A stretch of DNA of 64,000 bases. Source: Paraburkholderia graminis C4D1M. Lineage in GTDB: Bacteria > Pseudomonadota > Gammaproteobacteria > Burkholderiales > Burkholderiaceae. Positions within the stretch are counted from its first letter, which is position 1, and the number at the start of each line of letters is the position of its first letter. Shown here piece by piece: positions 3,778 through 25,533 of this stretch. The translations under genes and the position numbers were made by a program. The DNA lies in assembly GCF_000172415.1 (NCBI RefSeq), contig NZ_ABLD01000002.1:62001-126000 (forward strand). The letters are read 5' to 3'. A model generated the notes under the pieces. That model was not told where the DNA came from and made no database searches. It saw only the letters and a program-made list of their open reading frames with translations.

Positions 3778-4656
3778 ATGAGACCTTATCTTCCGCTTAA
3801 CGCGCTGCGCGCTTTTGAATCGTCCGCCCGGCACTTGAGCTTTACTCGCGCGGCACTCGAACTGAATGTCACCCAGGCCGCTGTCAGCCAGCAGGTCAGA
3901 TCGCTCGAAGAACGTCTCGGCACCACGCTATTCAAGCGCTTGCCGCGCGGTCTCGCGATGACCGACGAGGGTCTTGCATTGCGTCCCGTCCTGACTGACG
4001 CATTCGATCGCATCGAAGCCGTGCTCAAGCAATTCGAAGGCGGCCACTTTCATGAAGTGCTGACAGTCGGCGTGGTGGGTACGTTCGCGGTCGGCTGGCT
4101 CATGCCGCGGCTCAAATCGTTTCGAGAGGCTCATCCCTTCGTCGAATTGCGGCTGTTGACGAACAACAATCTCGTGGATCTCGCGACCGAAGGCCTCGAC
4201 TTCGCAATCCGTTTCGGCGACGGCACGTGGCCGGGTTCACTCGCGACACGCCTGCTCGATGCACCGCTCGCGCTCTTATGCACGCCGGAAATTGCAGCGC
4301 GTCTGTCGACGCCCGCGGATCTCGCCGACCAGACGCTGCTGCGTTCCTATCGCGCGGATGACTGGAGCAACTGGTTCGCCGCTGCGGGCATTCCACCGCG
4401 GCCCATTCGCGGACCCGTGTTCGATTCTTCGCGATTGATGGTCGAAGCGGCGATGCAGGGCGCGGGCATCGCACTCGCGCCCGCGCTGATGTTCGATCGA
4501 GAGATCAATACGGGCCGCCTCGTGCGTCCGTTCGATGTCGAAGTCCATGCCGGCAGTTACTGGCTCACATGGCTAAAGGGCAAGCCGATGACGCCCGCGA
4601 TGCTGCTGTTCAGTCAGTGGCTCATCAAGGAAGCGGCCACACACACGCCGGATTAG
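3778..4656 (+). CDS. ampR: LysR-family regulator of the AmpR/PenR type
   Basis: A 292-residue LysR regulator with an N-terminal HTH (LNVTQAAVSQQVRSLEERLG) and a C-terminal effector domain. The effector domain has the AmpR signature segments VGTFAVGWLMPRL, LLTNNNLVDLA and EGLDFAIRFGDG. AmpR proteins sense muropeptides from cell-wall recycling and switch the adjacent beta-lactamase gene from repression to activation. Here the gene is divergent from a class A beta-lactamase, matching the penR-penA layout of Burkholderia. The start is the ATG preceding RPYLPLNALRAFE, the usual N-terminus of this subgroup. Its stop codon overlaps the end of the convergent gene by a few bases. Confidence 0.93.
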   Translation: MRPYLPLNALRAFESSARHLSFTRAALELNVTQAAVSQQVRSLEERLGTTLFKRLPRGLAMTDEGLALRPVLTDAFDRIEAVLKQFEGGHFHEVLTVGVVGTFAVGWLMPRLKSFREAHPFVELRLLTNNNLVDLATEGLDFAIRFGDGTWPGSLATRLLDAPLALLCTPEIAARLSTPADLADQTLLRSYRADDWSNWFAAAGIPPRPIRGPVFDSSRLMVEAAMQGAGIALAPALMFDREINTGRLVRPFDVEVHAGSYWLTWLKGKPMTPAMLLFSQWLIKEAATHTPD

Positions 4657-4907
4657 CACAGGCCCGTGCGACGATAGCCGTTCATCGCGGGGCGTTCGGC
4701 TTGCGGCGGAAATACATTCCACGAACCGTCGTCGTGACGGAAGAAGAAGATGGACAGCAGGCCGCCCGGACGCAGCGCCTCGACGCGCACGAAACGCTGA
4801 TGCAGTGACGCGCGGTGGCAGAACTCGACCACTCGTGCCGGCATCGACGGCGTAGGTGCAAGCCATTTGTCGACGGCCCAGTGCAAGGTCTTTTCAGCAG
4901 CAGCCAT
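4653..4907 (-). CDS. Small protein of unknown function downstream of the LRAT-like gene
   Basis: An 84-residue protein starting MAAAEKTLH at an ATG with a strong GAGGAG ribosome site. The frame is open further upstream but without a comparable site. I do not recognise a family. The middle reads VEFCHRASLHQRFVRVEA followed by LLSIFFFRHDDGSW, suggesting a small mixed alpha/beta fold. There is no signal peptide or membrane segment. It lies 40 bases behind the LRAT-fold gene and is probably its operon partner. Because it sits at the edge of the peptide-export locus it may be accessory to it. Confidence 0.65.
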   Translation of the reverse strand: MAAAEKTLHWAVDKWLAPTPSMPARVVEFCHRASLHQRFVRVEALRPGGLLSIFFFRHDDGSWNVFPPQAERPAMNGYRRTGLC

Positions 4908-4947
4908 GATGTTCTCCTCGGTTTCTTCACTCATCTCTTTCGATAAC

Positions 4948-5442
4948 TCACGCCACTTGCGCGGCAAACTGCCTGTTCTTCGCGCCGGCCTCGACGAATG
5001 CCTTCACGAGGCACATCAGCACGTGCATGCCGGTGCGCGGATGGCGCAAGCTGCAATGCACCTGTTCGCTGCGGCTTTCGCCAAGCAGCACCCACGCGCA
5101 GAAGTGTTCGCAGTTGTTGGTCAAGAGGCGGTAGCGGTTCTCACCGAGACGTGAGCGCGCGCGGCGCACTGCTTCTTCGCCGAGGTAGCGCGCGCCGAGC
5201 GTCGCTCTGATCGTCAGCGGATGCCCGGCAGCGAAGCGGTCGAGTTCGACTTCTTCAACCGGGCCGCGATGCGCCGAACCGGCAAAGCCCGCGTAATGAA
5301 CCACACGGCCATTGCCCACATAAATGCCGTGATGTTCGTAACCGCAGCGGGTGGAGACCAGATGCGAACCGATCGGCAAGTCGATGGTGGACGACGGTTC
5401 ATCGGCCGCATCGCTTGTCGTCTGAAGAGAGTTCGTGTTCAT
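4948..5442 (-). CDS. LRAT-fold (NlpC/P60-like) acyltransferase or hydrolase
   Basis: A 164-residue protein with the LRAT signature: H38 in EHHGIYVG, H49 in VVHYAG and the nucleophile C111 in N-N-C-E-H-F. The family (lecithin:retinol acyltransferase, H-rev107, bacterial homologues) forms thioester acyl-enzymes and acts as acyltransferase, phospholipase or peptide hydrolase. The catalytic triad is complete, so it should be active. No signal peptide is visible, so it is probably cytoplasmic. The start MNTNSLQTT follows a GAGG site, although the frame is open to 5499. A sigma-54-like promoter lies about 40 bases upstream, the class of promoter that also precedes the peptide genes nearby. Acylation or trimming of exported peptides is possible but purely inferred. 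Confidence 0.75.
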   Translation of the reverse strand: MNTNSLQTTSDAADEPSSTIDLPIGSHLVSTRCGYEHHGIYVGNGRVVHYAGFAGSAHRGPVEEVELDRFAAGHPLTIRATLGARYLGEEAVRRARSRLGENRYRLLTNNCEHFCAWVLLGESRSEQVHCSLRHPRTGMHVLMCLVKAFVEAGAKNRQFAAQVA

Positions 5443-5483
5443 GGCTTGCCTCGTTTGTTTCCAACACTGTTGCGAGGTCTTTT

Positions 5484-5498
5484 GCATCATCCGGGCCA
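5484..5498 (-). promoter_or_regulatory. Possible sigma-54 promoter for the LRAT-like gene
   Basis: Read on the minus strand the sequence is TGGCCCGGATGATGC. GG and GC are separated by exactly ten bases, as sigma-54 requires, but -24 is TGGCCC instead of TGGCAC and -12 is ATGC. It ends about 40 bases before the start codon of the LRAT-fold gene. It is weaker than the four elements before the peptide genes. Confidence 0.45.
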
Positions 5499-5826
5499 TG
5501 CGCTCGGAAGCCCTTGTTTATAGGGCTTTGCGCGAAAATGCGCGGCTTTTAACGACGCGAGTGTGGGCCTTGAACCGACAGAAATCGGGTCGATGTGTTG
5601 GCGATTGGCGATCTTTTGTCACGTCACGAGCTGTGCTTTGGAGAGCTTTTTGGAAGCCTCGCGATGCATTGAGAAAGTGTTGGGCCCCACACCGGTCGTG
5701 ACGCGTGAATGTTGGCTACTGCCCGACCTATCGCTTTGCATGCGACTCGCTCGACACGCTCCGAGCGGCCCGCAGCCCCACGCCAGTCAACGCATTACCG
5801 AAGAAACGCAGGACGTCGCGTACAAA

Positions 5827-5843
5827 TTGGCATAGCGCTTGCA
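5827..5843 (+). promoter_or_regulatory. Sigma-54 promoter of first peptide gene
   Basis: The sequence TTGGCATAGCGCTTGCA has TGGCA at -24 and TTGCA at -12. Ten bases lie between GG and GC, exactly the sigma-54 spacing. It lies about 62 bases before the peptide start codon. The same geometry recurs before the other three peptide genes, which makes chance unlikely. Confidence 0.85.
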
Positions 5844-5904
5844 CTATCTCGCCCAGATCCACAAAAACCGCGCGCGTCGCGCACGCGGTCAACCGGAGAA
5901 CGAC

Positions 5905-6192: not shown

Positions 6193-6197
6193 CCGTT

Positions 6198-6968
6198 GTG
6201 ACTTGCGCGAGCCAATTCCGCTGGACGTCGTGCGCGCGTTCCGACGCGGGATGCGTGCGTGAAGTCAATGAAGATGCCTGCCTCGACGACGCCGAACTGG
6301 GACGCTGGGCCGTCGCGGACGGCATGGGCGGGCACGCGGTCGGCGACCTCGCGAGCCGCCTCGTGATCGACGCGCTAAAGCGGCTCGCGCCGCCCGTCAG
6401 CATGAAGGCGTTTATCGCGGACGCACGCGCGCATTTGCAGGTCGCGAATCGTCAGTTGAGAGAAGAGGCCGCGCGCCGCCAGGTGCAGCGCATCGGCAGC
6501 ACTGTCGTCGTGCTTCTCGCGTGCGATCGCTTTTGCGGCTATGTGTGGGCCGGCGACAGCCGCCTCTATCTCGTGCGCGACGGACAACTGCGCCAACTCA
6601 CGCGCGATCACAGTCAGGTTGAAGCGCTCAAGTCGCTCGGCGTGATTACCGATGAAGAAGCGCGGCATCATCCCGCGCAGCATATGATTACGCGTGCCGT
6701 GGGCGCGACCGATCTGCTCGAACTCGACGACGATGCAATCGAAGTCGCGGACGGCGACATCTTCCTGCTGTGCAGCGACGGCCTGAGCAACGAGGTCGAC
6801 GAAGCCGACATGCTGGCGGTGCTCAACACAGCCGCCCACGCCGACGCGCCGGATCTACTCGTGAGCCTCGCGCTCGAGCGCGGCGGCCGGGACAACATCA
6901 CGGCAGTCGTCGTGCGCGCGGAAGATCCTTATGCCGCCGACAAAACGCTGCTGAATCCCGCGCCATGA
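6198..6968 (+). CDS. PP2C-type protein serine/threonine phosphatase
   Basis: A 256-residue metal-dependent phosphatase that removes phosphate from Ser/Thr. The PP2C motifs are intact: R-E-V-N-E-D near residue 21, V-A-D-G-M-G-G-H with metal ligands D41/G42, W-A-G-D-S-R-L-Y near 117, C-S-D-G-L-S near 192, and G-G-R-D-N-I-T-A near 229. The start is a GTG five bases after the peptide 1 stop, so translation is probably coupled to the peptide. It is likely the off-switch for the transmembrane kinase at 22099-24282 and for FHA-bound phosphoproteins of the locus. The C-terminus carries the short motif A-D-K-T, also present between the FHA domains and membrane anchor of the FHA protein. This is a possible phospho-threonine docking site. 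Confidence 0.9.
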   Translation: MTCASQFRWTSCARSDAGCVREVNEDACLDDAELGRWAVADGMGGHAVGDLASRLVIDALKRLAPPVSMKAFIADARAHLQVANRQLREEAARRQVQRIGSTVVVLLACDRFCGYVWAGDSRLYLVRDGQLRQLTRDHSQVEALKSLGVITDEEARHHPAQHMITRAVGATDLLELDDDAIEVADGDIFLLCSDGLSNEVDEADMLAVLNTAAHADAPDLLVSLALERGGRDNITAVVVRAEDPYAADKTLLNPAP

Positions 6969-6987
6969 CAAAGCGGACATCGTCGCT

Positions 6988-8346
6988 TTATGTCTCGCCA
7001 TCGTCTTCTTCGCGCTCGTCCGCGCCGTTCCGGTCCAAAGGCACGACATTGCGATTGCGAAACTCCTTCGAATGAAGCCCGTGTTTTTTCAGCAGCATTT
7101 GCAGATGCGAGCGGTTCATGTCGATACGGCGCGCCAATTCCGCGACGGTGCCGTTCACTTCGCGCAGTCCGCGTTCGAGAAAGGCTTTTTCCGCGTCGTC
7201 ACTCGCCGCGCGCTTTGCGTCGCTGAGCGACATGAGATTCGCCACGCTGATCGGCTGCTGTCCCGAGCCATTCGCGACGCCTTGCAAGGCCGCCGCCGAA
7301 CCTGGCGCTGCGGGCCGCATGTCGGTCGGCAAGTGGTCGACATCCGCCATATCGCCGGCGAGACACGAGATGCGGTACATCACGTTACGCAATTCGCGGA
7401 TATTGCCGGGATAAGCGTAGTTGAGCAGAAAGTCCCGTAAACGAGGGGTTAATCTCACTGGTCTGCGCTTGAGCGTGCCGGCAGCTTCGTCGCCGAACCA
7501 GGCAATCAGCAGCGGAATTTCGTCGCGCCGTTCACGCAGCGGCGGCAGCGTGACGTGAATCACACTGAGCCGGTAGAACAGATCTTCGCGGAACCTGCCT
7601 TCCTCGCTCAGCTTGCGCAAGTTGCGATTCGTTGCCGCGACAATGCGCGTATCCACCGCAATGGTTTCGTCGGAGCCGACGCGTTGAATCTCGTGCGCTT
7701 CGAGCACGCGCAACAGTTTCACCTGTCCGGCGAGCGGCAACTCGCCGATCTCGTCGAGAAAAATAGTACCCGTATGGGCACTTTCGAATTTACCCTTGCG
7801 GTCATTCGAAGCGCCGGTAAACGCACCCTTGCGGTGACCGAACAGTTCCGACTCCAATAGATTGTCCGGAATCGCACCGCAGTTCACGGAAATAAATGGC
7901 TTATCCGCACGCGAGCCGTTCGCATGAATGACCTTCGCCATCAGTTCCTTGCCGGTGCCGCTTTCGCCGTCGATCAGAACCGGCAAGTCTGTCGGCGCGG
8001 CCTTCTCGGCAATTTCCAGCGATTCCAGGAGCCGCGCATTGTCGCCGAACGTCCCTTCGAAAATGAAGCTGCGCGCGAGCAGTGCCTGCCTGCGCGCCCC
8101 GCGCGACTGCTCGGCGCGCTGCTCCGGCTCCGCCGACGTCGCGGCCTGCACGAAGCGCTCCTTGTGCGAAAGTTGCATGACTTCATCGCGCAGCGACGTG
8201 GCCTGCCTCAACAGCTTGTCGATGTCGGTGCGTTCGAGTCGCGACGACCATCGCAGCGTCGAGCGCAGAATCTCAATCCGCTCGATCAAACCCGCATACG
8301 AAATCGCCGGACTGATGTCTTCAATCTGGTCGAGTATCTTCATCAT
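6988..8346 (-). CDS. Sigma-54-dependent transcriptional activator (AAA+ and Fis-type HTH)
   Basis: A 452-residue enhancer-binding protein that would use ATP to open sigma-54 promoters. The AAA+ core has Walker A GESGTGKE (near 128), the sigma-54 contact loop GAFTGA (near 175), Walker B GTIFLDE and an arginine-finger region (FREDLFYRL). A Fis-like HTH lies near the C-terminus ([20 protein letters not shown]). The N-terminal 90 residues form no receiver, GAF or PAS domain, so its input is unusual. They may be controlled by protein contact or phosphorylation. The first ATG (8346) overlaps the ABC exporter stop codon by one base; a GTG lies directly before it. It is the last gene of the exporter operon. 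Four sigma-54 promoters before peptide genes in this locus are its obvious targets. Confidence 0.9.
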
Positions 8347-11300
8347 CACGCACTCAGTTGTTTCTGCACGAGTTGGTAGTACATGCCACCGCGTTGCAGC
8401 AGTTCTTCGTGACGGCCCTGTTCGACAATCGCCCCTTCATAAAGAACAAGGATCTTGTCGGCACGCATGATCGTACTCAGCCGATGCGCGATGATCACCG
8501 CCGTGCGGCCTTTCAGAATGTCATGCATATTGCCGAGAATGTTGCTTTCCGACTGCGAATCGAGCGCGGACGTCGCCTCGTCGAATACGAGCAGACGCGG
8601 ATCGTGATACAGCGCGCGCGCAATGCACAGCCGCTGAATCTGACCGCCCGACAAACCAATTCCGCGTTCGCCGACAATCTGCTCATAGCCCAGCGGCATC
8701 TTGCTGATGAACGCGTGCGCGTCGGCCATTCTCGCGACTTCCTCTATACGGCGGCGGTCCGGTGCATCGTCGCCGCTTGCGATGTTCTCGGCAATCGTGC
8801 CGGAAAAAAGCAGGTTGCTTTGCATCACATAGCCAATCTGCGCGCGAAAATAGGCTTTGTCGACCACGCTAAGGTCATAACCGTCGATCGACATCTTGCC
8901 TTCGCTCGGTGCATAAAAGCCCACCAGCAACTTCGCGAGCGTGGTCTTGCCTGACCCGCTGCGCCCGACAATCGCGACCAGTTCGCCGGGCTTGATGTCG
9001 AAACTGATGTTCTCCAGCACATAGGCGGAGTCGTTCTCGCCATAACGGAAGTACACACCGCTCAGGCTTATTTCGCCTTGCAGCTCGGGCAACATCACGC
9101 GTGAGGGCAGATCTTCCGGCTTTTGTTCCGGCTCGATGTCGAGCACGTCGCCGAGCCGTTCCATCGCGACGCCCGCATCGTTCAGCATGCTCCATAAGCC
9201 GACGAGTCCCATCAACGGGCCTAACACGCTGCCCATGAATGCGTTGAATGCAATCAATTGCCCGATTGTCATTTCGCGCGCAAGCACGAGATTCGCGCCG
9301 ACCCATAGAATTGCAATCGTGGTGGCGGCGTTCAGCAATTGGCTGCCGAGCCCGACAAGAATATTGAAAGCGTGCGCACGGTACTGCACTTCCAGTGCTT
9401 TTGCGTATTTCTTTTCCCAGCGCAAACGCACGGGCCGTTCGATGCCCATGCCCTTGACCGTCTCCACGCCGGCCAGCGCCTCCATGAGAAACGACTTCGA
9501 TTCCGTCGACGCCGTGAACACCTCGCGCGCATAGTTCTTGATCTTCGGCGTGGCCAACGCGGTCAGCGCCATGATAGGAATAACGAATCCGATCAACACG
9601 AGCGTCATCTTCACGTTGTAGACGAACATGATCGTGAAGTAGATGAACACCATCAGCAGGTTCAGTGCGGTCGTCACCGTCGATTCGGTGAGAAATGCGC
9701 GAATGGTCTGGTTCTCCTGAAAGCGCGCAAAGATGTCGCCGGTTTTGCGCTTGGCAAAGAACGAGAACGGCAGCGACAACGTGTGCTTGAAGAACTGCGA
9801 CATCATCGCAAAGTCCATATTGCGCACCATGAAATTCGCGAGGTACGCGCGAATCGACGACATGAGCTGCGAGAACACATTGGCAATGATGAGCCCGCCA
9901 ATCAGCAGATGCAGCAGGCTCACGTTCTGATGCACGATCACACCGTCAAGAATGTTCTGGATGATGAGCGGCGGAATCACACCCAGCACCTGAATCACGA
10001 ATGTGGCCAGAAACAGGTGCCCGAGAATCTTTCTGTACGGCTTCAGGTAGCCGACAAAGCGTATCCACGGCGAACGCGCCGCCGACATTTGCACGAGTTG
10101 CGGGCCGCCCGTAAACAGCAGACATGTGCCGCTCCAGCCGCGCTCGAAGTCTTCGACCGTCAATTTGCGAAAGCCGAGCGCCGGATCGGCGACCCATACA
10201 TATTCGGTAGAGAGGCCGTACACCACGACATAGTGATAGCCTTCCCAATGCACGATGAACGGCAAATCGAAACCACGCAGCGAATCGAACGTGCACTGCA
10301 CGCCACGCGCGGTGAAGCCAAGCGATTCGCCCGCGCGCGCGAGACTGTCGAGCGTCGCGCCTTGCGTCGTCACATTCGCGAGCTCGCGCAATTTGCCGAG
10401 CGTCATCGGAATGCTGTAGTGGCGGCAGATCATCGCGAGACACGCGGCGCCGCAATCCATTTCTTCCGCTTGCTCGACCAACGCGAAGCGCTTGATTATC
10501 TTCTCGCCCAACGCGGGCTTGCTCTGCAAATCGAGCATGAGCGGCAGCTTGCGGCGTTGCTCGAGCCGCTTTTGCCGCTGTAATTCGCGATCGCCATAAC
10601 GAATGCGCTCGTCCAGTACTTCGCGCAGCTTGGGATTGCGTTCGAGGATGAAGTGCACGGTGCGCTCGGGAATCACCAGCAGCCGCGCGTCTGTGGACGC
10701 AATGACCGAAGCCATTTGCTCCTGGCGCATCAAGCACGCCTTTTCACCGAATATCTCGCCTTCGCCGAGCGTGGCGAGCGTATAGTCGCGCCCTTCTTCG
10801 TGGCGGACAATGCGCACCTCGCCTTGGCGCACGACGTATAAGCGCCGGTCGTCGCGTGCGTCCTGCCGCAGGATTTCCTTGCCCGCCGCCACGCGTTTAA
10901 CGCCGACGCTACGCACATATTCTTCGAGTTCAGCCTTGTTCAGTTTGCCGCGCAAATCGAATAGCTGCGCGACAAAGCCACCCGCCGAATTGATCGCCAC
11001 ATAGCTCGCGACAAACGCGAGCGCCGCCTGATTGCCGGCCATCACGGGCTCGATTGCCGCGCGCGGAATAAACAGCAATTCCGTTTTCGCGGACGCCCGC
11101 ACCGACGCCTCATGCACATAGGTACGCAGCATTGCAATGTCGGCGAAGATCTCGCCCGACTTGCGCACGCCCATGCTCGTTTCCTTGCCATGCTCCTCGA
11201 CGAAGATGCGTACCGAGCCCGAGCGGACTATGTATAAACCGTCGGCTGTCTCGCCTGTCGAGCACACGGTTTCGCCAAACGAATAGAAGCGCGCTTGCGC

Positions 11301-11402
11301 ATATTCGGCTAGACGTTCGATCTCGTCGCGCGAGAAAGGCGACAGTATCTCCACCGAGGCAAGAAATTCGGCGGCGGACGGCGCGGTCTGGGGTGCATCC
11401 AT
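8346..11402 (-). CDS. Peptide exporter: tandem cNMP-binding-like domains, C39 peptidase, ABC transporter
   Basis: A 1018-residue inner-membrane protein. Residues 20-130 and 155-260 are two cyclic-nucleotide-binding folds. The C39 leader peptidase spans about 303-430, with oxyanion Q311, nucleophile C317 (in DCGAAC), H390 and D406. The Q-C and H-D spacings match ComA-type peptidases, so cleavage after double glycine is expected. A membrane domain runs about 450-730. The ATPase has Walker A GRSGSGKT, signature LSGGQ and Walker B LLVFDEATSALD. In both cNMP folds the arginine that normally grips the cyclic phosphate is replaced: the segments read YVHEAS and QEQMAS. Ligand binding may therefore be altered or lost. 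The overall order recalls NHLM-type bacteriocin exporters. Its likely substrates are the four GG-leader peptides. Confidence 0.94.
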   Translation of the reverse strand: MDAPQTAPSAAEFLASVEILSPFSRDEIERLAEYAQARFYSFGETVCSTGETADGLYIVRSGSVRIFVEEHGKETSMGVRKSGEIFADIAMLRTYVHEASVRASAKTELLFIPRAAIEPVMAGNQAALAFVASYVAINSAGGFVAQLFDLRGKLNKAELEEYVRSVGVKRVAAGKEILRQDARDDRRLYVVRQGEVRIVRHEEGRDYTLATLGEGEIFGEKACLMRQEQMASVIASTDARLLVIPERTVHFILERNPKLREVLDERIRYGDRELQRQKRLEQRRKLPLMLDLQSKPALGEKIIKRFALVEQAEEMDCGAACLAMICRHYSIPMTLGKLRELANVTTQGATLDSLARAGESLGFTARGVQCTFDSLRGFDLPFIVHWEGYHYVVVYGLSTEYVWVADPALGFRKLTVEDFERGWSGTCLLFTGGPQLVQMSAARSPWIRFVGYLKPYRKILGHLFLATFVIQVLGVIPPLIIQNILDGVIVHQNVSLLHLLIGGLIIANVFSQLMSSIRAYLANFMVRNMDFAMMSQFFKHTLSLPFSFFAKRKTGDIFARFQENQTIRAFLTESTVTTALNLLMVFIYFTIMFVYNVKMTLVLIGFVIPIMALTALATPKIKNYAREVFTASTESKSFLMEALAGVETVKGMGIERPVRLRWEKKYAKALEVQYRAHAFNILVGLGSQLLNAATTIAILWVGANLVLAREMTIGQLIAFNAFMGSVLGPLMGLVGLWSMLNDAGVAMERLGDVLDIEPEQKPEDLPSRVMLPELQGEISLSGVYFRYGENDSAYVLENISFDIKPGELVAIVGRSGSGKTTLAKLLVGFYAPSEGKMSIDGYDLSVVDKAYFRAQIGYVMQSNLLFSGTIAENIASGDDAPDRRRIEEVARMADAHAFISKMPLGYEQIVGERGIGLSGGQIQRLCIARALYHDPRLLVFDEATSALDSQSESNILGNMHDILKGRTAVIIAHRLSTIMRADKILVLYEGAIVEQGRHEELLQRGGMYYQLVQKQLSA

Positions 11403-11444
11403 AAGCGTGCGGACCTCGGTTCTACTTCTGACGGTGGCGCCCGG

Positions 11445-12197
11445 TTAGCGCGCTTCGATCACATGCTCCTGCGCACGCGCGATCAGCCAGCTTTCGCGCA
11501 AAAGGCGCCTGACTTCAGCGGCCACGTCGGCGTCGAGCGTCGCTGGGTATTTCGCGGTCACCGCGAAGATCTCGAAGCACGAGCGATCCGCCGACGGGAA
11601 CGGCCCAAGCAGATCGCCCACCGCCGCGTTAAAGATCTTCGCCTCGATGTCCGGCTTTAACGAGCCACGCAGTACTTTGCCGATCACACCACCCGCTTCT
11701 CGCGTATCGGCAATCGAATGCTCGCGCGCCATGTCGGCGAAACTATCGGGATCGTCGCGCAGATACGAGATCATTTCCTTCGCTTTGCCTTCGCTGTCGA
11801 GCACGATATGGCTCACTTCGATTGCATCGAACTTCGGCGAATTGAGCGCGAAGTAGTCTTTGACGGCCGCATCGTTGCCGACTTGGTCGAGCATCTTCTC
11901 CTGATACAGGCCGTCCGTGATGAACGCCTCGAATTCGTCGAGACTCACGTTCAGCACGTCGAGATACTGGTTCATATCCGTCGCGCGATGCAGCCCTCGC
12001 ACGCGGCGAAACTGATCGGCGCGCTCCTGAATGTCGTCGGCCGTAACGACGATGCCCTGCTTCTTCGCCGCGTGCACCGTCAGCTTGTCGCGCACTATCT
12101 GCTCGATCAGGCTTTCGAACTGGCCAGTCAGTTTGAGAAGCCGGATGAACTCGCCCACATCCACGACTTCATCGTCAATTCGCACTATTGCGGTCAT
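11445..12197 (-). CDS. Parvulin-type peptidyl-prolyl isomerase without signal peptide
   Basis: A 250-residue protein with a helical N-terminal chaperone-like half (SurA/PpiC type) and a rotamase domain at about 123-215, recognised by S-H-I-V-L, the A-x-x-H-S-I segment and the G-G-V-I-G turn. Unlike SurA or PpiD it has neither signal peptide nor membrane anchor. It should work in the cytoplasm, where it could hold peptide precursors unfolded before export. An AAAGGAG site precedes the ATG. It lies 42 bases upstream of the exporter gene and 37 bases downstream of the HlyD gene, clearly within the same operon. A PPIase between adaptor and exporter genes is unusual for classical type I secretion. 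Confidence 0.85.
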   Translation of the reverse strand: MTAIVRIDDEVVDVGEFIRLLKLTGQFESLIEQIVRDKLTVHAAKKQGIVVTADDIQERADQFRRVRGLHRATDMNQYLDVLNVSLDEFEAFITDGLYQEKMLDQVGNDAAVKDYFALNSPKFDAIEVSHIVLDSEGKAKEMISYLRDDPDSFADMAREHSIADTREAGGVIGKVLRGSLKPDIEAKIFNAAVGDLLGPFPSADRSCFEIFAVTAKYPATLDADVAAEVRRLLRESWLIARAQEHVIEAR

Positions 12198-12234
12198 GTT
12201 GTCCGCTCCTTTGGTTGATGTGTGATCCGCGCGG

Positions 12235-17936: not shown

Positions 17937-18127
17937 GATTTTCTCCGATGACGCCGACTTCACTGCACAATCCGCGCGCACCATTTAAGTAAAGCATCTC
18001 CGACGCCGCTTCACCATCGAAGCGGCGCATGACAAAAGCTCGGGAGATGTGCGGTGAGGAAGTGTCGCGTGAAAAGAACGATTGGGTGCGCGAACTTTTT
18101 GAGGACCGCAGCTAGCGGACGCGCCGC

Positions 18128-18409: not shown

Positions 18410-18483
18410 GGCAAATCTCCGGAACGGAAGGTCACAGTCTTGCGGTTGGTTTCGAGCAACTTGTCTACTCGAACGTAACTAAC

Positions 18484-18499
18484 GCATGGGCTGTGCCAG
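18484..18499 (-). promoter_or_regulatory. Sigma-54 promoter of peptide gene 2
   Basis: On the minus strand the sequence reads CTGGCACAGCCCATGC. It has a perfect -24 element (CTGGCAC), ten bases between GG and GC, and ATGC at -12. It lies 75 bases before the peptide 2 start codon. About 175 bases further upstream remain free for activator sites. Confidence 0.83.
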
Positions 18500-18674
18500 T
18501 TTCGTTTGTCTATCCGAAGAAATTTGTGGAAGTGCCGTGAATGGAGGCTTTCGACGATACATCGATCGGGCAATACAGCGTGTGACCAGAAAGCATCAGC
18601 GTCGATGTGATGGATCGCGGCCAACAGCGGGTGTGAAATGGTTGGCTGCGGCATGACATCGGCGCTAACTAACG

Positions 18675-19109
18675 TCAACGCGCAATGACCGTGATCTTCT
18701 TCGAGTACACCGGCGGGTTGTGCGGAACGTGCATGTCGTCGCCCATCAGCAATTGCAATGTATGTTTGCCGGGCGGCAGTTGAATCATCGTCTCGGTTTC
18801 GCCCGCGCCGAAATGCAGGTGATTGCGATCCGAGGGTATCTCCTGGTCCATCGGCGGCAAGTCGGTGTCGATCAGAAGATGATGATGTCCCGTGTTCGGA
18901 TACTTCACGCCTTTCGGCGCGACGCCCATATAGCGCAAACCGAACCACACGCGAAACGGCTTGTTGGCCGTAACCACCTGGCCGTCGTTCGGATAGCCGA
19001 TATAGGCATGTGCGCCGGAAGGCGACGCCGCCCCGGCCGCCACGGCGAAATCCGCCGCGCCCCATGTCGCCGACGCCACCAGCGCCGCGACTGCAATGAA
19101 CTTATACAT
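18675..19109 (-). CDS. Secreted DUF4399 protein, copy A
   Basis: A 144-residue protein with a cleavable signal peptide (MYKFIAVAALVASATWGAAD) and a DUF4399 domain. The conserved core is PNTGHHHLLIDTDLP, then R-N-H-L-H-F-G-A-G-E-T-E and K-H-T-L-Q-L. The many histidines suggest metal binding in the periplasm, but no activity is established for the family as far as I know. It is a tandem paralogue of the next gene, with almost identical core segments. The pair lies within the peptide-export locus, between peptide gene 2 and the caspase/FGE gene. It may serve the exported products or be a passenger. Confidence 0.82.
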   Translation of the reverse strand: MYKFIAVAALVASATWGAADFAVAAGAASPSGAHAYIGYPNDGQVVTANKPFRVWFGLRYMGVAPKGVKYPNTGHHHLLIDTDLPPMDQEIPSDRNHLHFGAGETETMIQLPPGKHTLQLLMGDDMHVPHNPPVYSKKITVIAR

Positions 19110-19147
19110 GAAGGTTTCTCCGTCCTGAGCAGGCCGCGATGAACGCG

Positions 19148-19651
19148 CTAGTCTTTCTGCACGGTGATGGTGATCTTTTTCGAGTACACGGGCGGCGCAT
19201 GCGGCAGGTGATTGTGGTCGCCGAGAATAAGCTGCAACGTGTGCTTGCCTGGCGGCAACTCGATACGCGCGTCGGTCTCGCCCGCGCCGAAGTGCAGGTG
19301 ATTACGGTCCGACGGAATCTCCTGATCGAGCGCGGGCAGGTCCGTATCGATCAGCAGATGATGATGCCCGGTGTTGGGAAACGCGACGCCTTTCGGGCAC
19401 ACGCCCATATTGCGCAGCCCCATGCGCACCCACAGCTTGCCGCCGTGAATCACGGCGCCGTCGGGCGGCCAGATGATGTACTCCTCCGCACCGGCAGGCG
19501 ATGCCGTGGAATCCGCGAATGCCGCCACCGGCAAAACCATGCCGACAATCGACACGGCGAGCACCGTCCGCGAAACCGCGCGCAATGCACATAGGCGCAT
19601 CGTGCTTCTGGGACTCGGGTTGGAAACAGCGGGGACGTCGGTTCTTCGCAT
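19148..19651 (-). CDS. Secreted DUF4399 protein, copy B
   Basis: A 167-residue paralogue of the downstream DUF4399 gene. It shares the GHHHLLIDTDLPALDQE-type core, the R-N-H-L-H-F-G-A-G-E-T motif and P-P-V-Y-S-K-K-I-T near the end. The chosen ATG (19651) follows a GGGAG site. The N-terminus is longer than in copy A, with a polar stretch before the hydrophobic signal segment (TVLAVSIVGMVLPVAAFA). Starts at 19696 and 19600 are possible. The two copies are 38 bases apart and co-transcribed. Divergence in the N-termini and conservation of the His-rich core imply a duplication that is kept under selection. Confidence 0.82.
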   Translation of the reverse strand: MRRTDVPAVSNPSPRSTMRLCALRAVSRTVLAVSIVGMVLPVAAFADSTASPAGAEEYIIWPPDGAVIHGGKLWVRMGLRNMGVCPKGVAFPNTGHHHLLIDTDLPALDQEIPSDRNHLHFGAGETDARIELPPGKHTLQLILGDHNHLPHAPPVYSKKITITVQKD

Positions 19652-20031
19652 GGCGCACTCTCCCGAAGAGCGGTCGTGACCATCTCGACTGCGCAAGGCA
19701 GCGATGGGTGATTGTGCTTGATCGCGGGCTCGCGCGATGCGCCAGCCGCGTAGTTAAAACGACCGTGCCACGTTGCTTTGTGAATTAGCTTAGGACGTAA
19801 CTTGCCAAAAAGATACGCCACACTCGTTAACCGTATAGCGCACTCGGTAAAAGTGTTGGTTGTTGCCCGCCATGCGCGTGCTATGGTTGTTGATACGTTG
19901 CAACGCGGATGATCGAAAGCGCGCCGACGCTTCGCTTTTCGGGGCGGGGGTATCGGCGAATCGCAACGTATTCCAGCGGCAATGCGGTGCGCGAATACCT
20001 ATGTTCTGTCCGGAACAAACAGGATGCGAAG
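19652..20031. other. Divergent intergenic region, DUF4399 genes and caspase/FGE gene
   Basis: About 380 bases hold the promoters for the leftward DUF4399 pair and the rightward caspase/FGE gene. I searched for the GG-ten bases-GC pattern of the peptide promoters and found none in the right place, so these genes are probably not direct sigma-54 targets. No coding sequence is convincing here. Confidence 0.5.
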
Positions 20032-22032
20032 ATGTGGCGAATATTCCTGCTGATGTGGATGGCCGGGGCCATTCTGGTGGATTGCGGCGATGCATTTGCC
20101 GCAACGCCGCGTGAGAGTACAAGCGCGACTAATCTGGCCGCACCGGCTAATAGCGTGATCGCGCCGTTCGCTCCGCAGCACGACGTTGTTGGCGCTTCAC
20201 GCATCGCGCTCGTTATCGGCAATGGCGCCTATGCTGCCGATGCGTCGAAGCTCATCGAGCGAAACGCGCCGCGTGATGCTCAAGCGCTGGGCAAGCAATT
20301 GCGCGCGCTCGGCTTCGACGTCGTCGTGCTTGCCAATGCAACGCCGCTGCAAATGCGGCGAGCGATTGGCGAATTCCGCGAGCGTCTGCGTGCGGGCGAT
20401 GTCGGTCTGTTCTATTTCGCCGGTCATGGCATGCGGCTCGGCGGACAAACGCTATTGATTCCTGCCGGTCTCGACGTGCGCTCGCCGGCCTCGCCAATTC
20501 GCGAGGGCATCGATCTGAATGACGTGTTGCAGGCAATGCACACGTCGCGCAATGCACCATTGAACATTGCGATTCTCGACACCTGTCTCGACAATCCATT
20601 CACGCGCGATGTCGCGCAGGCGGCGCCAGCACTGCCGCCGAACACGGTCGTTGCCTATGCAACGGCGCAAGGCGGCTTTGCGGCCGACGGCTCCAGCCAC
20701 GGCATCTATACGCAAGCGTTACTGCGCGCACTCGACGAGAAGCCCACGCAGCCTTTGATGAGCCTGCTCGCGAGCGTCGCTGCGCAAGTCAAACACGCAA
20801 CCGGAGGGGAACAGCAACCGTGGGTTGAGTCGTCGTTGCCCGATTCAACCTTAACGACGAGCAACGTAAAGGTTAGGGATACGCGACTCATCGCCAGTAA
20901 CGAGCATGTCGTCACACTGCACAGCCGAGGCATTCTGCCGAAAGACAGCACCGAGCAATACGAAATCACCTTCTGGAATTCGATCAAGGACAGCAATTAC
21001 CCCGCGGATTACGAAGCGTATTTGAAGGCCTATCCGAATGGGCGCTTCGCCACGCTCGCGCATGCGCGAATCGATCGGTTGCGGGCGGCGTCGGCGAATG
21101 CGCCTGCGCCTGCGCCGAACCCGTCGACACAGCAGGTTGCGCCGTCAGTTGCACCGCCGCCGACAGCGCGGCCGGCGACACCTGCTGCGCCCACTGCATC
21201 GGCCGCGCAAGAGCGCCCGCGTGCCGCTTCCGCACCGCCAGCCGCGAGCACCACTCCACCGCCAGCACCGCCCGCTGCAGCCACCGCGCAAAAGCCTGCA
21301 ACGCGTGCGCCAGTAGCAGGCGAAAGCCGCGACTGTGCCACGTGTCCGATCATGATCGCGTTGCCCGCAGGCTCGTTCTCGATGGGCAGCAACAGCGACG
21401 ATCCGTCCGAGAAGCCGGTTCATCACGTGACGATTGGTGCGCCGTTCGCTATCGGCAAATACGAAGTGACAGTCGAGCAGTGGAATGCCTGCGTCGCGGC
21501 GAATGCATGCCCGAAACTCTCGCCGGAAACGAATGCCAATAAGTCAGCTCCCGCGCGCGACGTGAGTTGGGACGACGCGCAGCAGTACGTGAAGTGGCTC
21601 ACGCGAACGACGGGCAAACCGTACCGTCTGCCCACTGAGGCCGAGTGGGAATACGCGGTGCGCGGCGGCACGACGAGCGCGTACTGGTGGGGCGATCAGA
21701 TGCGCAAGGGCAACGCCAATTGCAAGGACTGCGGCGAGCCGTGGCACAAGGAAGGCCCCGAAGCCGCAGGTTCTTTTGCGCCGAATCCGTACGGCCTCTA
21801 TGACATGAACGGAAGCGTATGGGAATGGACCGCCGACTGCTGGCATAACTCGTATCAGTCAGCGCCCGTCGACGGCCGCGCGTGGGAAAACCCCGGTTGC
21901 GACATGCGCGTGATTCGCGGCGGTTCCTGGCGCGAAGGCGGCGGCTACATGCTGAGCGCGACGCGCTTCAAATACAGCGCGGGCGTGCGTCAATCGCAGG
22001 ATGGTTTCCGCGTAGTCAAAGATCTCAAGTGA
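20032..22032 (+). CDS. Secreted caspase-like (C14) peptidase fused to FGE/SUMF1-type domain
   Basis: A 666-residue fusion. A signal sequence ([19 protein letters not shown]) precedes a C14 caspase-fold domain (about 55-275) with the dyad H132 (Y-F-A-G-H-G) and C185 (I-L-D-T-C). Next come a helical stretch, a Pro/Ala-rich linker (about 355-430) and a formylglycine-generating-enzyme-like domain to the end ([48 protein letters not shown]). The ATG at 20032 follows AGGA. Most bacterial FGE-like domains are not true sulfatase activators; some bind ligands or modify peptides. A caspase-FGE pairing is known in other bacteria, but its place here, facing a Ser/Thr kinase inside a peptide-export locus, suggests processing or immunity. 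That role is inferred. Confidence 0.87.
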
Positions 22033-22098
22033 TCTGCTGCGCCGGGAATTAACTCATTGCATCAAGCTCCGCAGCGCTCGGCTCGCTGGACGAAAACA

Positions 22099-24282
22099 TC
22101 ATGGCGCATGCGGCTTCGTGGTGATCGGCGCGAAGTCCGCCACGATCCGCTCGCGGCCATACTTCGCGGCTATTTGCGCGAGCCGTGTGTCCAGTGCGCG
22201 CAGATAGTCGGCGCGCGATTCGGCTTCCGGGCGCGGCTTGTCGAAGAGCGGCGCGGGCGTGATCAGCAGCACGACCATCTCCGAACCGAACGGCTTTGAA
22301 ATGACCCAGTCGCCCCCGCTGCCGACCGTCGCCGAATAGTGCGGCGGCGCCTGGTTGTCCTTCGCGCGCGGGCTCGGCACCATATGAACGACATTGCCGT
22401 CGAGCTGGTAGTAGTCGAGATTCACATACGAGTCGTAGCCGGGCGTGCTCACGTCGACAACCAGTGGATCGCCCTCGTTCAATTGGCCGCTCGGCGGCCG
22501 CACCTGCAAGCCCGCGATGTGCCCGGCTTGCCAGTTCTGCGTCCAGTACGGTGCAAGCGCCTTCACGGTGTCGCATTTGTCGTCCGCGACCGGATCGACG
22601 TCGAGCTTCAGCGTGTCCACGCCGGGTAGCGCTGTGAGGCCGTCTTTTAGTCGCGCGACGCCATAGCGTTGCGAAAGATAGCCGCGCACCGTCAACGTGT
22701 GATCCTGCGTCGACGCGGATAACGCCGAGCACGGCACTTGTGCGAGCGTCGGAGCGACCGCTGCGAGTGTCAGTGCGGGCTTGGGTTTGGGTGCAGCAGG
22801 CGGGGTGGGGGCTGCTACTGCCGCTGAAGCAGTCGCCGATGCGGACGTTGCTGTGGTCGGATTCGTTGTTGCTGCGCTTGCGGTGCTGGTCGCCGCTGTC
22901 GCCGCTGCCTCGCTCGCTTGTGTCGCCGACGACGCGGCTTCCTCCACCCGCCCCTGCGACGTGCCCGTAGCCTGTTGCATTTCGCTATGACGATTCGGCG
23001 CCGAGCGCCACGCATACACGGCCACGGCCGCTGCGCAAATCACCGCGAAGCCGGCGAGTCCCGCCTTCGCCAATGTCCCCGACTTTTCCGCGCGCGCCTC
23101 GTTGTCGAACTCGGCGATGAAGCGCGTGACGCTCGGCATGCGCGTCGCGCGGTCGAAGGAAAGCGCGGCCCGCAATGCGCGCCATTGCGTCGCATCGAGA
23201 TTCGGCGGACGCTGCAGCTTGAATTCGGCATTGCGCGCCTGCGTCGCGGACAAGCGGTCGAACGGATGATGCCCCGTCAGCAATTCATACGTGATACAGC
23301 CGAGCGCATAAATATCGTCGCGCGGATCGGGCTCGCGATGCTCGATCATCTCCGGGCTCGCATACGCAGGCGTCAACGCGCCGAGGCTGCCTGGATCGAA
23401 TACGGTTGCATCGCTTTCTTCTTCGGGTCGCTGAAACACGCGCGCAATGCCGAAGTCGATGACCTTCACTTCGGCATTCGTCGTGAGAAAAACATTGGCG
23501 GGTTTGAAATCGCAATGCACGAAGCCGCGTTCGTGTGCATACGCGAGCGCGCTGCACATGCCGCGCACGATCGGCAGCGCGGCGCGAACCGGCATGCCCT
23601 GATAGCCCGGCGTGCGCAGCAACTGGCTGAGCGGCTTGCCCGACAGGTACTCCATCGTCAGATAAACGATCGGGCCGTCGCGATCGAAGTCGTACACCGT
23701 GATGATGTTGCGATGCGCGAGCACCTGCGCCTTGCGCGCCTCGCGCTGCAACGCGACGAGCGAATTCGGATTGCCGCGGAACTGAACGTTGAGGACCTTG
23801 ACCGCGAGGTACGGTTTTCTGTCGGACGCCTCGAGCTTGCGCAGATCGAGCGCCTTATAAACCGTCCCCATTCCGCCGACGCCGAGGCACTCTTCGAGAA
23901 CGAAGCGGTTATTCAGCGTATCGCCGATGCCTTTGATCTGGTCGAAGCCTGCGCCGTTGGGCACGTTCGCGCTACTTGCGGACGCGCCTGTGCGTCCCGC
24001 GCCGGCCGGCACCACCGAGGGCATCTCCACCGTGGTCTGTATGCCGGTTTCCTCGCCGCCGGCCGCCACATTCGACACGCGCAGTTGCTCGATGCGCCGC
24101 CGCACTTCGATATAAAGGTCCTCCGGCAGCGGGGCTTTACGATGCGCGGCGCCAAGCGTCTCCAGCAGCTGCGTCGGACCGAGGCCTTCGGTCACCAACG
24201 TGCTGTCGAGTTGAGCGACGAACTCGTCACGCGACAGCTCGCCGTTCTGGAAGTCGTGAATCACACGCGCAAGGCTAGCCAT
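22099..24282 (-). CDS. Transmembrane Ser/Thr protein kinase with periplasmic DUF4384-like domain
   Basis: A 727-residue Hanks-type kinase. An N-terminal helical region (1-75) and a Thr-rich linker precede the kinase domain (about 126-392), which has the glycine loop GVGGMGTVYK, ATP lysine K162, catalytic H-C-D258-F-K and D276-F-G. It should be active. A membrane helix lies near 408-426. An Ala/Thr/Pro-rich spacer and a C-terminal sensor-like region follow, the latter containing a BON-like stretch and a DUF4384-type domain (GDPLVVDVS, LDYYQLDGNVVHMVPS). It is the only kinase in the locus, so it should oppose the PP2C at 6198-6968 and create the phospho-threonines read by the dual-FHA protein. 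It converges on the caspase/FGE gene. Confidence 0.92.
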   Translation of the reverse strand: MASLARVIHDFQNGELSRDEFVAQLDSTLVTEGLGPTQLLETLGAAHRKAPLPEDLYIEVRRRIEQLRVSNVAAGGEETGIQTTVEMPSVVPAGAGRTGASASSANVPNGAGFDQIKGIGDTLNNRFVLEECLGVGGMGTVYKALDLRKLEASDRKPYLAVKVLNVQFRGNPNSLVALQREARKAQVLAHRNIITVYDFDRDGPIVYLTMEYLSGKPLSQLLRTPGYQGMPVRAALPIVRGMCSALAYAHERGFVHCDFKPANVFLTTNAEVKVIDFGIARVFQRPEEESDATVFDPGSLGALTPAYASPEMIEHREPDPRDDIYALGCITYELLTGHHPFDRLSATQARNAEFKLQRPPNLDATQWRALRAALSFDRATRMPSVTRFIAEFDNEARAEKSGTLAKAGLAGFAVICAAAVAVYAWRSAPNRHSEMQQATGTSQGRVEEAASSATQASEAAATAATSTASAATTNPTTATSASATASAAVAAPTPPAAPKPKPALTLAAVAPTLAQVPCSALSASTQDHTLTVRGYLSQRYGVARLKDGLTALPGVDTLKLDVDPVADDKCDTVKALAPYWTQNWQAGHIAGLQVRPPSGQLNEGDPLVVDVSTPGYDSYVNLDYYQLDGNVVHMVPSPRAKDNQAPPHYSATVGSGGDWVISKPFGSEMVVLLITPAPLFDKPRPEAESRADYLRALDTRLAQIAAKYGRERIVADFAPITTKPHAP

Positions 24283-24764
24283 GTTGTGCGAATTGCCGCC
24301 GTTGCCGTGAGCCCCGATCGCGTTCGACCAAGGCTCTGCCGGCCGTTAGGAAAGCTGTCGTAACCAGTTACATGTGCCGCTTCGATACTAGCTCCCGGCC
24401 TGTTCTTTCGCAAACCAGGATTGCCCCGCGCGATGCGCGGCTCACGCTTGTCGCGTGCCGTCCAACATAATGCGGCGCGTTGTCGGGTGAATGCCACCAC
24501 TCGCCTTGCTCGTCGCAGCTTCGACGGATAGGAAAAGACGCGCGGCTTAGCGCTGCAAGCCTTATCCATAAAGGCACCATAACTTTTATTAGGAACCTTG
24601 AATAAATCTGGCACAAGCCGTGCATTAGTGAATCGGGCAGGCAGACTAAAAACAGATTTCCTATACTCATAGTGCGACGAGACCTCAGCACATCTGACGA
24701 CACCCGCGAGCGCACGCCGGATCATCGCACCGGCCAATCGCTCGACTTTCGCGGCGAACACATC
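24283..24764. other. Intergenic region between kinase and peptide gene 3
   Basis: About 480 bases separate the divergent kinase and peptide 3 genes. The part around 24560-24665 is clearly AT-richer than its surroundings. It contains the sigma-54 element at 24608-24624, leaving a long leader of about 130 bases before the peptide start. I see no coding sequence with a ribosome site. Confidence 0.5.
24608..24624 (+). promoter_or_regulatory. Sigma-54 promoter of peptide gene 3
   Basis: CTGGCACAAGCCGTGCA has a perfect -24 block (CTGGCAC), exactly ten bases between GG and GC, and GTGCA at -12. It lies 142 bases before the peptide 3 start codon, further than for the other peptide genes. Confidence 0.8.
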
Positions 24765-24983
24765 ATGGCCAAGCTTCTCATCAACGATCTCGCAGACAAC
24801 GTCGAACTCGACCGTGAGGCGATGGCCGCCATTGTCGGCGGCGCACGCATTGGGGCGCGGCTCTCGAGCGCCGCGCCGCTCGTGCCGACCGCGACTCGCG
24901 TCGTCGAATATCCGCCCGGCTTTCCGGCGGCGCATCAAACCATCGTGAAAGTGGCGGCGACGCGCAATACACGGCGCAGCTAG
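24765..24983 (+). CDS. Double-glycine-leader peptide precursor 3
   Basis: A 72-residue precursor with a 26-residue leader (MAKLLINDLA... A-M-A-A-I-V-G-G) that matches leaders 1 and 2 at D8-L9, L15-D16, A19-M20 and the two glycines. The mature part is about 46 residues, basic and Pro/Ala/Val-rich, with no cysteine, ending T-R-R-S. It differs from peptides 1 and 2 beyond the leader, so the leader is the shared export tag. No clear ribosome site precedes the ATG. The frame is open upstream to 24672, but the leader alignment fixes this start. A strong hairpin terminator follows. Confidence 0.8.
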   Translation: MAKLLINDLADNVELDREAMAAIVGGARIGARLSSAAPLVPTATRVVEYPPGFPAAHQTIVKVAATRNTRRS

Positions 24984-25006
24984 ATTCGCGTTTATCAAGG
25001 CAGTAC

Positions 25007-25038
25007 AGCGGCACGCGTCATCGACGCGTGCCGCTTTT
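25007..25038 (+). terminator. Intrinsic terminator after peptide gene 3
   Basis: AGCGGCACGCGTC and its exact inverse GACGCGTGCCGCT form a 13-bp stem with a three-base loop (ATC), followed by TTT and a T-rich stretch. It sits 24 bases after the stop codon and separates peptide genes 3 and 4 into independent transcripts. Confidence 0.8.
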
Positions 25039-25254
25039 GTTGTTGCCGCGCCGCGTTTCGCGACGCGTGCATCTCGTGCGTCGTTCGGCGTGCACGCGGC
25101 CCAACAGTTCGGGTGCGCTCTGTCTGCTGTATCCATACATCTGGCCGCTGGTTTTGCATCGTCGCGCTTTGCGATTAAAGGCCGCGCAATGCACATCCTT
25201 GCCTGGCCTGGCATCGGCGGACGCGTTGCGGATCGGCTCTTTATCGCGAGGAGA

Positions 25255-25271
25255 TTGGCATATCCCTTGCA
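25255..25271 (+). promoter_or_regulatory. Sigma-54 promoter of peptide gene 4
   Basis: TTGGCATATCCCTTGCA has TGGCA and TTGCA blocks with ten bases between GG and GC. It is nearly the same as the peptide 1 promoter. It lies about 57 bases before the peptide 4 start codon. Confidence 0.85.
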
Positions 25272-25326
25272 GAAACTTGAGCGGGCACTCCGCCGTGCTC
25301 GCCCACCCACCCCAAGGAGTATCGCC

Positions 25327-25533
25327 ATGAAATCCACCGTCATCATCAAGGACCTGCCTCGCGGCGCCGACGCCGCCCACGAAGAAGTCACGCTCAGCGC
25401 CGAGCAGTTGAAGCTGGTGCGCGGCGGCCGTTCCGTCGTCGTCACCGTCGACGGTGGCGCGCTCGGCCATGTCGACGACTTCTCGATCAACACCGCCATC
25501 TTCGAAGGCCGCATCAAAGGCACTTATCTGTAG
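25327..25533 (+). CDS. Double-glycine-leader peptide precursor 4 (divergent leader)
   Basis: A 68-residue precursor behind a strong AAGGAG site. The leader is longer than in the other three, about 34 residues. It begins MKSTVIIKDLP and ends L-S-A-E-Q-L-K-L-V-R-G-G, which resembles the classical bacteriocin-type leader end more than the A-M-x-A form. The K-D-L element near the N-terminus is kept. The mature part is about 34 residues, cysteine-free, beta-prone (SVVVTVDGG), and ends K-G-T-Y-L. The sigma-54 promoter upstream groups it with the other peptides. The distinct leader raises the question of whether one peptidase processes all four. Confidence 0.78.
   Translation: MKSTVIIKDLPRGADAAHEEVTLSAEQLKLVRGGRSVVVTVDGGALGHVDDFSINTAIFEGRIKGTYL

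Follow-up and report, generated by a model that had tools for sequence, protein, structure and literature searches.

Organization of the locus

A 64,000-nucleotide window of the Paraburkholderia graminis C4D1M genome (RefSeq assembly GCF_000172415.1, contig NZ_ABLD01000002.1, positions 62,001 to 126,000 of the forward strand) harbors a locus at 4653..25533, counted from the first letter of the window, that encodes a C39 peptidase ATP-binding cassette (ABC) exporter, small precursors with double-glycine (GG) leaders, a sigma-54 activator, a Ser/Thr kinase, a PP2C phosphatase and a membrane protein with two FHA domains (Table 1). The exporter and its precursors form a conserved unit that is proposed here to be switched, on balance probably, by the kinase, the phosphatase and the dual-FHA protein. 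The parts named in an initial annotation of the window are all in their places, and Pfam scans recovered the exporter with its HlyD adaptor and outer-membrane factor (OMF), the parvulin, the activator, an LRAT-fold protein, two DUF4399 proteins and the complete kinase, PP2C and FHA set. Its remark that type VI secretion genes are absent holds for the 17 locus proteins scanned (two shadow frames included), none of which matched a type VI family; no type VI search covered the remaining genome. The four GG-leader peptides are likewise present, and the 26-residue leader ascribed to them applies to the first three, the leader of the fourth having 34 residues. An open reading frame at 24261-25523 on the minus strand was judged a shadow frame, because it overlaps the peptide genes and reads as low-complexity, and was not among the scanned proteins.

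On the minus strand, the OMF gene is followed, after a gap of 259 bp, by the genes for the FHA protein, HlyD, parvulin, exporter and activator. Within this operon the FHA gene shares 38 bp with that for HlyD, and the exporter gene 4 bp with that for the activator; the other gaps are 37 and 42 bp. The exporter, which contains the single C39 match in the whole 7.48-Mb genome, retains the catalytic residues of the peptidase (among homologs, Cys in 97/98, His in 97/98 and Asp in 98/98). Together with the HlyD adaptor, the OMF and GG leaders that are hydrophobic at positions -4, -7 and -12, these residues give the locus the features of a type I peptidase-containing ABC transporter system. The exporter also shares the arrangement of HetC-type proteins, a cyclic nucleotide monophosphate (cNMP) fold N-terminal to C39 and ABC, here with two cNMP_binding stretches in Pfam. 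Among the 60 solved-structure matches listed for the exporter, the best-matching stretch never begins before residue 295. At the positions that we take to be those of the classic phosphate-binding arginine, the two folds lack this residue: the first has Glu98 in all 98 homologs, and arginine does not occur at position 230 in any of the 98, which rules out cAMP as a ligand bound via the classic arginine. The ligand of the tandem folds is probably something other than cAMP. The GAFTGA motif of the activator is intact, each residue being kept in 96 or 97 of 97 homologs, and the parvulin is related, below the cut-off, to the TIGR04500 peptide maturation family.

Table 1. Features of the locus (positions in the window). 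Fractions of 42 refer to the named-species loci; site scores are out of 15
Feature	Position	Strand	Evidence and remarks
Small conserved protein, 84 amino acids, no family	4653..4907	-	No Pfam or NCBIfam match; 33/42
LRAT-fold protein	4948..5499	-	Pfam LRAT 2e-22; 33/42
Sigma-54-like site TGGCATAGCGCTTGCA	5828..5843	+	Score 15/15; 77 bp before pep1
pep1, GG precursor, 95 amino acids	5905..6192	+	36/42, cross-matches removed
PP2C phosphatase	6198..6968	+	Pfam PP2C_2; 5 bp after pep1; 37/42
Sigma-54 activator (AAA+, GAFTGA)	6988..8349	-	Pfam 1.5e-70; 4-bp overlap with exporter gene
C39 peptidase ABC exporter, two N-terminal cNMP folds	8346..11402	-	Pfam C39, ABC and two cNMP_binding stretches
Parvulin, taken as cytoplasmic	11445..12197	-	Pfam Rotamase (PpiC); no signal peptide by eye
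HlyD adaptor	12235..13623	-	Pfam HlyD_3; TIGR01843 173 bits, under cut-off of 209
Dual-FHA membrane protein	13586..16213	-	Two FHA stretches in Pfam; AlphaFold2 model; conservation; 38-bp overlap with hlyD
OMF, NodT type	16473..17984	-	Pfam OEP; TIGR01845 309 bits, above cut-off of 210
pep2, GG precursor, 93 amino acids	18128..18409	-	pep2-type peptide here in 41/42
Sigma-54-like site TGGCACAGCCCATGCG	18483..18498	-	Score 13/15; 89 bp before pep2
DUF4399 protein, signal-like N-terminus	18675..19109	-	Pfam 1.3e-36
Second DUF4399 protein	19148..19600	-	Pfam 4.7e-38
Caspase and FGE-like (FGE-sulfatase) protein, signal-like N-terminus	19909..22032	+	Pfam
Ser/Thr kinase, predicted transmembrane helix, C-terminal DUF4384-like part	22099..24282	-	Pfam 1.3e-40; DUF4384 match below cut-off
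Sigma-54-like site TGGCACAAGCCGTGCA	24609..24624	+	Score 14/15; 156 bp before pep3; remnant of lost pep5
pep3, GG precursor, 72 amino acids	24765..24983	+	38/42, cross-matches removed
Sigma-54-like site TGGCATATCCCTTGCA	25256..25271	+	Score 15/15; 71 bp before pep4
pep4, GG precursor, 68 amino acids	25327..25533	+	17/42; flanks end near here, so absence elsewhere is not implied

Conservation of the block

A scan of named species with the FHA protein as query yielded 42 loci, every one of them from a record titled Paraburkholderia or Burkholderia. Exporter, parvulin, HlyD, FHA protein, OMF, activator, both DUF4399 proteins and the caspase/FGE protein are present in all 42, the kinase in 41 and a pep2-type peptide between the OMF and DUF4399 genes in 41; pep3, PP2C, pep1, the LRAT gene and the 84-residue protein follow in that order (Table 1). 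These counts exclude overlapping cross-matches to other GG peptides (five pep1 and two pep3 matches were removed), and misses do not amount to proven absences, because flanks reach no further than 10 kb and a number of contigs are short. An FHA protein from Paraburkholderia sp. RCC_158 shares 98% identity with the one in the window, and P. xenovorans LB400 carries the core of the block.

In a survey of 200 sampled Burkholderiaceae genomes, for each of which a few first-look candidates were scored, exporter and FHA protein occur in the same 56 genomes and in no others at the cut-offs used (E<=1e-20 for the FHA protein, E<=1e-200 for the exporter); these genomes span 7 of the 25 genera of the sample. 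A further 55 loci from this sample, again from seven genera and including two whose FHA proteins are identical to those of named-species loci, all encode exporter, parvulin, HlyD, FHA protein and OMF, with the activator in 54, DUF4399 and FGE proteins in 52, PP2C in 50 and pep1 in 49. Exporter and FHA genes lie on the same strand in all 55, at a distance of 2140-2365 bp, and the order activator, exporter, parvulin, HlyD, FHA, OMF is kept in 54/54 loci with all six genes. The co-occurrence of exporter, FHA protein, activator and leaders that the initial annotation had suggested looking for across Burkholderiaceae is thus borne out. Chance clustering is ruled out by the shared distribution, the fixed order and the retention of genes in every named-species locus, and the block has been kept together as a unit in seven genera of Burkholderiaceae. 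At one locus (L040, a metagenome-assembled genome whose isolate is titled Vsou symbiont), matches to the FHA protein and the exporter are truncated or displaced, which looks like decay of the locus.

Outside the family, full-length exporters were found in seven of 274 genomes of the class, at 72, 69 and 36-38% identity, and activator, parvulin, HlyD, FHA protein and OMF recur around them, wholly or partly. Proteins of the same architecture are named in records of Skermanella, Maridesulfovibrio and Planctomycetota, among 120 matches listed.

The precursor peptides and their sigma-54-like sites

A leader profile built from 83 leaders (the 42 named-species loci and the window) finds 140 GG peptides at 10 bits or more in 41 held-out loci from six other genera, as opposed to one in reversed sequence; 39 of the 41 loci have at least one match. 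Positions -4, -7 and -12 are Leu, Ile, Val, Met or Phe in 90, 77 and 76% of 216 distinct leaders, the last two figures being probably low because parsing shifts some GGA leaders by one residue. The same three positions are read by the C39 domain of LahT (PMC6363468). Clustering of 298 peptides gave families of 234, 47 and 13 members and four strays; of the latter one, from L034, is false, being a stretch of the sigma-54 activator. The main family, about 67 residues long when mature, is Asn/Gln-rich, weakly charged and Cys-poor, with 21% Asn plus Gln and 7% charged residues versus 7% and 22% in other locus proteins.

An exporter with HlyD, OMF and GG leaders is the layout of microcin and bacteriocin loci, and among 30 pep2-type peptides 11 of the 13 invariant columns lie within the leader, as would suit microcin-like antibacterial toxins to which the LRAT, DUF4399 or 84-residue protein would give immunity. 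The peptide families are nevertheless not strain-specific but reappear from genus to genus, with 234 of 298 peptides in one family, and each locus holds several Cys-poor, weakly charged peptides, so that a bacteriocin locus is rather unlikely. By analogy with the EbfG proteins of Synechococcus discussed below, the main family is likely to act extracellularly as surface or matrix material, while pep3 and pep4, both of which have a conserved core (RVVEYPPGFP in pep3), may be signals. These cores, the divergent arrangement of the kinase and peptide genes and the DUF4384-like part of the kinase (below the Pfam cut-off) are what one would expect if exported peptides were pheromones signalling back to the periplasmic domain of the kinase in a quorum circuit. 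No receptor was identified, however, and a mature length of about 67 residues in the main family is long for a typical pheromone; we regard such a circuit as improbable.

Sites resembling sigma-54 promoters were scored on a hand-made 15-point scale, based on what we take to be the -24/-12 motif, and the best site within 200 bp upstream was counted. The window contains 25 sites with a score of at least 13, so that an isolated weak site carries little weight unless it is conserved; one precedes each of pep1 to pep4 (Table 1). Across loci, a score of at least 14 is reached before all 88 pep1 genes that have sufficient sequence upstream, 59/110 pep5 and 13/18 pep4 genes, and at least 13 before 88/88, 100/110 and 18/18, respectively, and before 52/69 pep2 genes. 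Random pieces reach 14 in 1.0% of cases, and the upstream regions of other genes served as an added control: such sites precede none of 106 exporter, 101 activator, 103 parvulin, 101 HlyD, 92 PP2C and 78 kinase genes, 1/100 FHA, 3/65 OMF and 3/49 LRAT genes. At 13 or more the counts are 4/101 for HlyD, 4/92 for PP2C and 4/65 for OMF. As scored from sequence, sigma-54-like sites are concentrated at the peptide genes. Where present, pep6 and pep3 lie downstream of pep5 on its strand. Both pep5 and pep6 are absent from the window, where an alignment break at 24631/24632 marks about 763 bp missing relative to four other loci (L002, L003, L004 and L006); through this loss the sigma-54-like site of pep5 now stands before pep3.

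The kinase, phosphatase and FHA protein

Catalytic residues of the kinase are kept in 62-63 of 63 homologs, and the PP2C residues that were checked are also kept. In the FHA protein, Arg48, Ser65, Arg66 and Asn87 of the first domain and the Ser, Arg and Asn of the second are kept in 97/97. An AlphaFold2 model (mean predicted local distance difference test score, pLDDT, 71.9) comprises the two FHA domains, a disordered linker (residues 245-379), a single long helix containing the predicted membrane segment, and a solenoid of helices. A structure search returned FHA domains only, the helical part having no match among the 50 listed. The linker, where pLDDT falls below 50, contains a threonine pair, Thr274-Thr275, that is present in 100/100 FHA proteins and lies in a conserved DKTTFV motif—KTTFV recurs in a distant FHA protein of only 38% identity (L129)—and T250 and T252 are conserved at 98%. 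The C-terminal tail of PP2C carries a conserved D[KR]TLxNP motif, with its Thr (Thr250) and the Asn-Pro at 98% of 91 sequences. From the conservation of the FHA, kinase and PP2C residues, the Thr-Thr pair and the phosphatase tail, and from the parallel with GarA/OdhI, in which two conserved adjacent threonines likewise sit in a flexible segment beside an FHA domain, we infer a phospho-switch.

The kinase is the loosest member of the set. In the family sample it lies within the initially examined 20 kb, at the right end, in 23/55 loci. Extension of the flanks by up to 9.7 kb for 31 of the other 32 loci (in one case by only 2.5 kb; one locus at a contig end was left out) revealed it in 15 more, 14 times at the left end beyond the LRAT gene and once at the right, always adjoining at least pep3. 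Overall it is at the locus in 38/55. In Caballeronia sp. M1242, a full-length kinase gene lies about 130 kb from the locus on the same replicon, beside pep5, pep6 and pep3, and in a plasmid collection the four records with the FHA protein are the only ones with a kinase match covering at least 80%. The kinase is therefore a mobile part, found at the right end, the left end or some 130 kb off, that keeps its GG-peptide neighbors. Homologous loci whose circuit genes were independent of the exporter had been named in the initial annotation as evidence that would tell against joint function; here the FHA gene is embedded in the exporter operon, the PP2C gene follows pep1, and it is the kinase that wanders.

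Its absence from the locus in 15 of 16 genomes of genus g10 and its displacement in M1242 might suggest that kinase, PP2C and FHA protein are mere neighbors acting elsewhere, with only exporter, parvulin, activator and peptides belonging together. Against this, the FHA gene is part of the exporter operon, where it overlaps hlyD, and the PP2C gene begins 5 bp after pep1. The displaced kinase still has pep5, pep6 and pep3 as neighbors, pep5 being preceded by a sigma-54-like site that scores 13, and related exporters elsewhere in the class, in other families, also have an FHA homolog next to them. A neighboring circuit thus has little likelihood.

A model for phosphorylation-gated export

In the switched exporter proposed here, the sigma-54 activator, encoded by the last gene of the exporter operon, would turn on the peptide genes, as their upstream sites suggest. 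The parvulin may hold or fold the precursors, the C39 domain would cut them after the double glycine and, as is known of the family, the ABC-HlyD-OMF assembly would export the mature peptides. The transmembrane kinase would sense something via its periplasmic part and phosphorylate the Thr-Thr pair of the FHA linker and the threonine in the PP2C tail. Most likely it is the first FHA domain that would then bind the phospho-threonines and so open or close the exporter complex, and PP2C, whose gene follows the sigma-54-preceded pep1, would reset the switch in a negative feedback. The joint function put forward in the initial annotation is supported, with phospho-control and secretion as predicted parts. 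The broader proposal—phosphorylation-gated type I secretion with nucleotide-sensing folds and sigma-54 promoters of its own, by which Burkholderiaceae would deposit Asn/Gln-rich peptides on their surface and whose core (exporter, FHA protein, activator and parvulin) extends to other families of the class—is tentative and falls slightly short of an even chance.

Several observations weigh against this model. FHA domains usually carry an arginine where the second domain here has Lys164, a lysine invariant in 22 aligned rows, and the first domain is for this reason the likelier phospho-reader. Thr274 and Thr275 belong to a conserved island of about 30 residues (about 270-298), followed by a variable stretch, so that they may have another role. 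These two points slightly lowered confidence in the model, which stands modestly better than even. Sixteen of the 31 extended flanks (those of 15 of the 16 g10 genomes and of G112) yielded no kinase. Promoter evidence is uneven: pep2 sites reach a score of 14 in 11/69 cases only, pep6 and pep3 have almost no site of their own (0/63 and 1/70), and 13/49 LRAT genes show a site of at least 13. An AlphaFold2 prediction of pep2 gave a helical leader and no confident fold in the mature part (mean pLDDT 60.7), and composition by itself suggests that the main family may be amyloid-like. At the seven loci with distant exporters (72-36% identity) the leader profile found no GG leader, and two of these exporters have lost the C39 Cys and His; GG peptides are therefore not universal in the wider group.

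Relation to known systems

Each element is known separately—the exporter layout, cNMP-C39 exporters and control by kinase, PP2C and FHA protein; no description of such an exporter joined with a kinase/PP2C/FHA set was found in a search of open-licence literature, which omits most subscription papers. There is a fair chance that phospho-gating sets the system apart from known kinds. In type VI secretion, the threonine phosphorylation pathway (PpkA/PppA/Fha) likewise has a kinase, a PP2C phosphatase and an FHA protein in control of a secretion machine; here all three are present but the circuit joins a type I exporter. Type I exporters are usually viewed as controlled by expression. If the model is true, threonine phosphorylation would govern a second secretion machine besides type VI, and the carriers of the block, soil and plant-associated relatives of Burkholderia, would have a new kind of regulated secretion pathway. 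The system may account for surface material of unknown nature in plant-associated Paraburkholderia, and the locus offers precise sites for study: the two threonines, the phosphatase tail and the GG cuts.

In GarA, phosphorylation occurs in an ETTS motif beside the FHA domain (PMC12321487). The DKTT motif here also has two adjacent threonines; it belongs to a membrane protein, follows two FHA domains on their C-terminal side, and its phosphorylation is predicted. HetC of Nostoc PCC 7120 likewise unites cNMP fold, C39 and ABC in one protein and binds ppGpp, whereas neither cAMP nor c-di-GMP has a significant effect; in contrast to the exporter described here it has one cNMP domain, its substrate is unknown whereas here precursors adjoin the exporter, and the available text of that report does not describe a kinase/phosphatase/FHA unit (PMC10986499). 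Cyanobacterial bacteriocin clusters of groups I, II and VI share C39-ABC, HlyD, SurA/rotamase and precursor peptides, but the terms kinase, cyclic nucleotide and peptidyl-prolyl are absent from the main text, and the passages available describe neither an FHA nor a sigma-54 unit (PMC3140520). In the EbfG1-4/PteB system of Synechococcus elongatus, four small GG proteins are needed for biofilm, and EbfG1-3 form amyloid in a test system; the likeness is one of description, not of sequence comparison, and the accessible portions of these papers do not describe a kinase switch (PMC4997328, PMC9981879).

Accessory proteins and related exporters

The caspase/FGE protein, called secreted in the initial annotation, has both domains and a signal-like N-terminus. 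Its caspase His is kept in 64/92 and its Cys in 66/92 homologs; the His position is empty in 28/92, and the three of these inspected (L056, L065 and L079) proved to be FGE-like proteins of short length. At columns 675, 676 and 680, where we presume the active-site Cys pair to lie, none of the 92 homologs has a Cys; the FGE domain is therefore probably not a formylglycine oxidase, and this assignment was dropped. Anti-phage defence was also rejected, as PADLOC run on eight proteins returned only general kinase, cNMP and AAA/ABC matches and a weak caspase match.

Among the related exporters, those of L133 and L135 have Asn in place of the C39 Cys and Arg in place of the His and adjoin GGDEF/EAL genes (which in L133 include a LapD_MoxY_N domain) and ShlB-type two-partner secretion genes; these changes and neighbors suggest that the wider group may export large proteins uncut. 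In L131 and L134 the PP2C gene next to the exporter has an ATP-grasp gene close to it, and L131 has three consecutive OMF genes. The related exporter operon of L130 is followed by a lipoprotein-like protein that matches caspase weakly, with a sigma-54-like site scoring 15. The genes for the 84-residue and LRAT-fold proteins co-occur, in the same 33 named-species loci.

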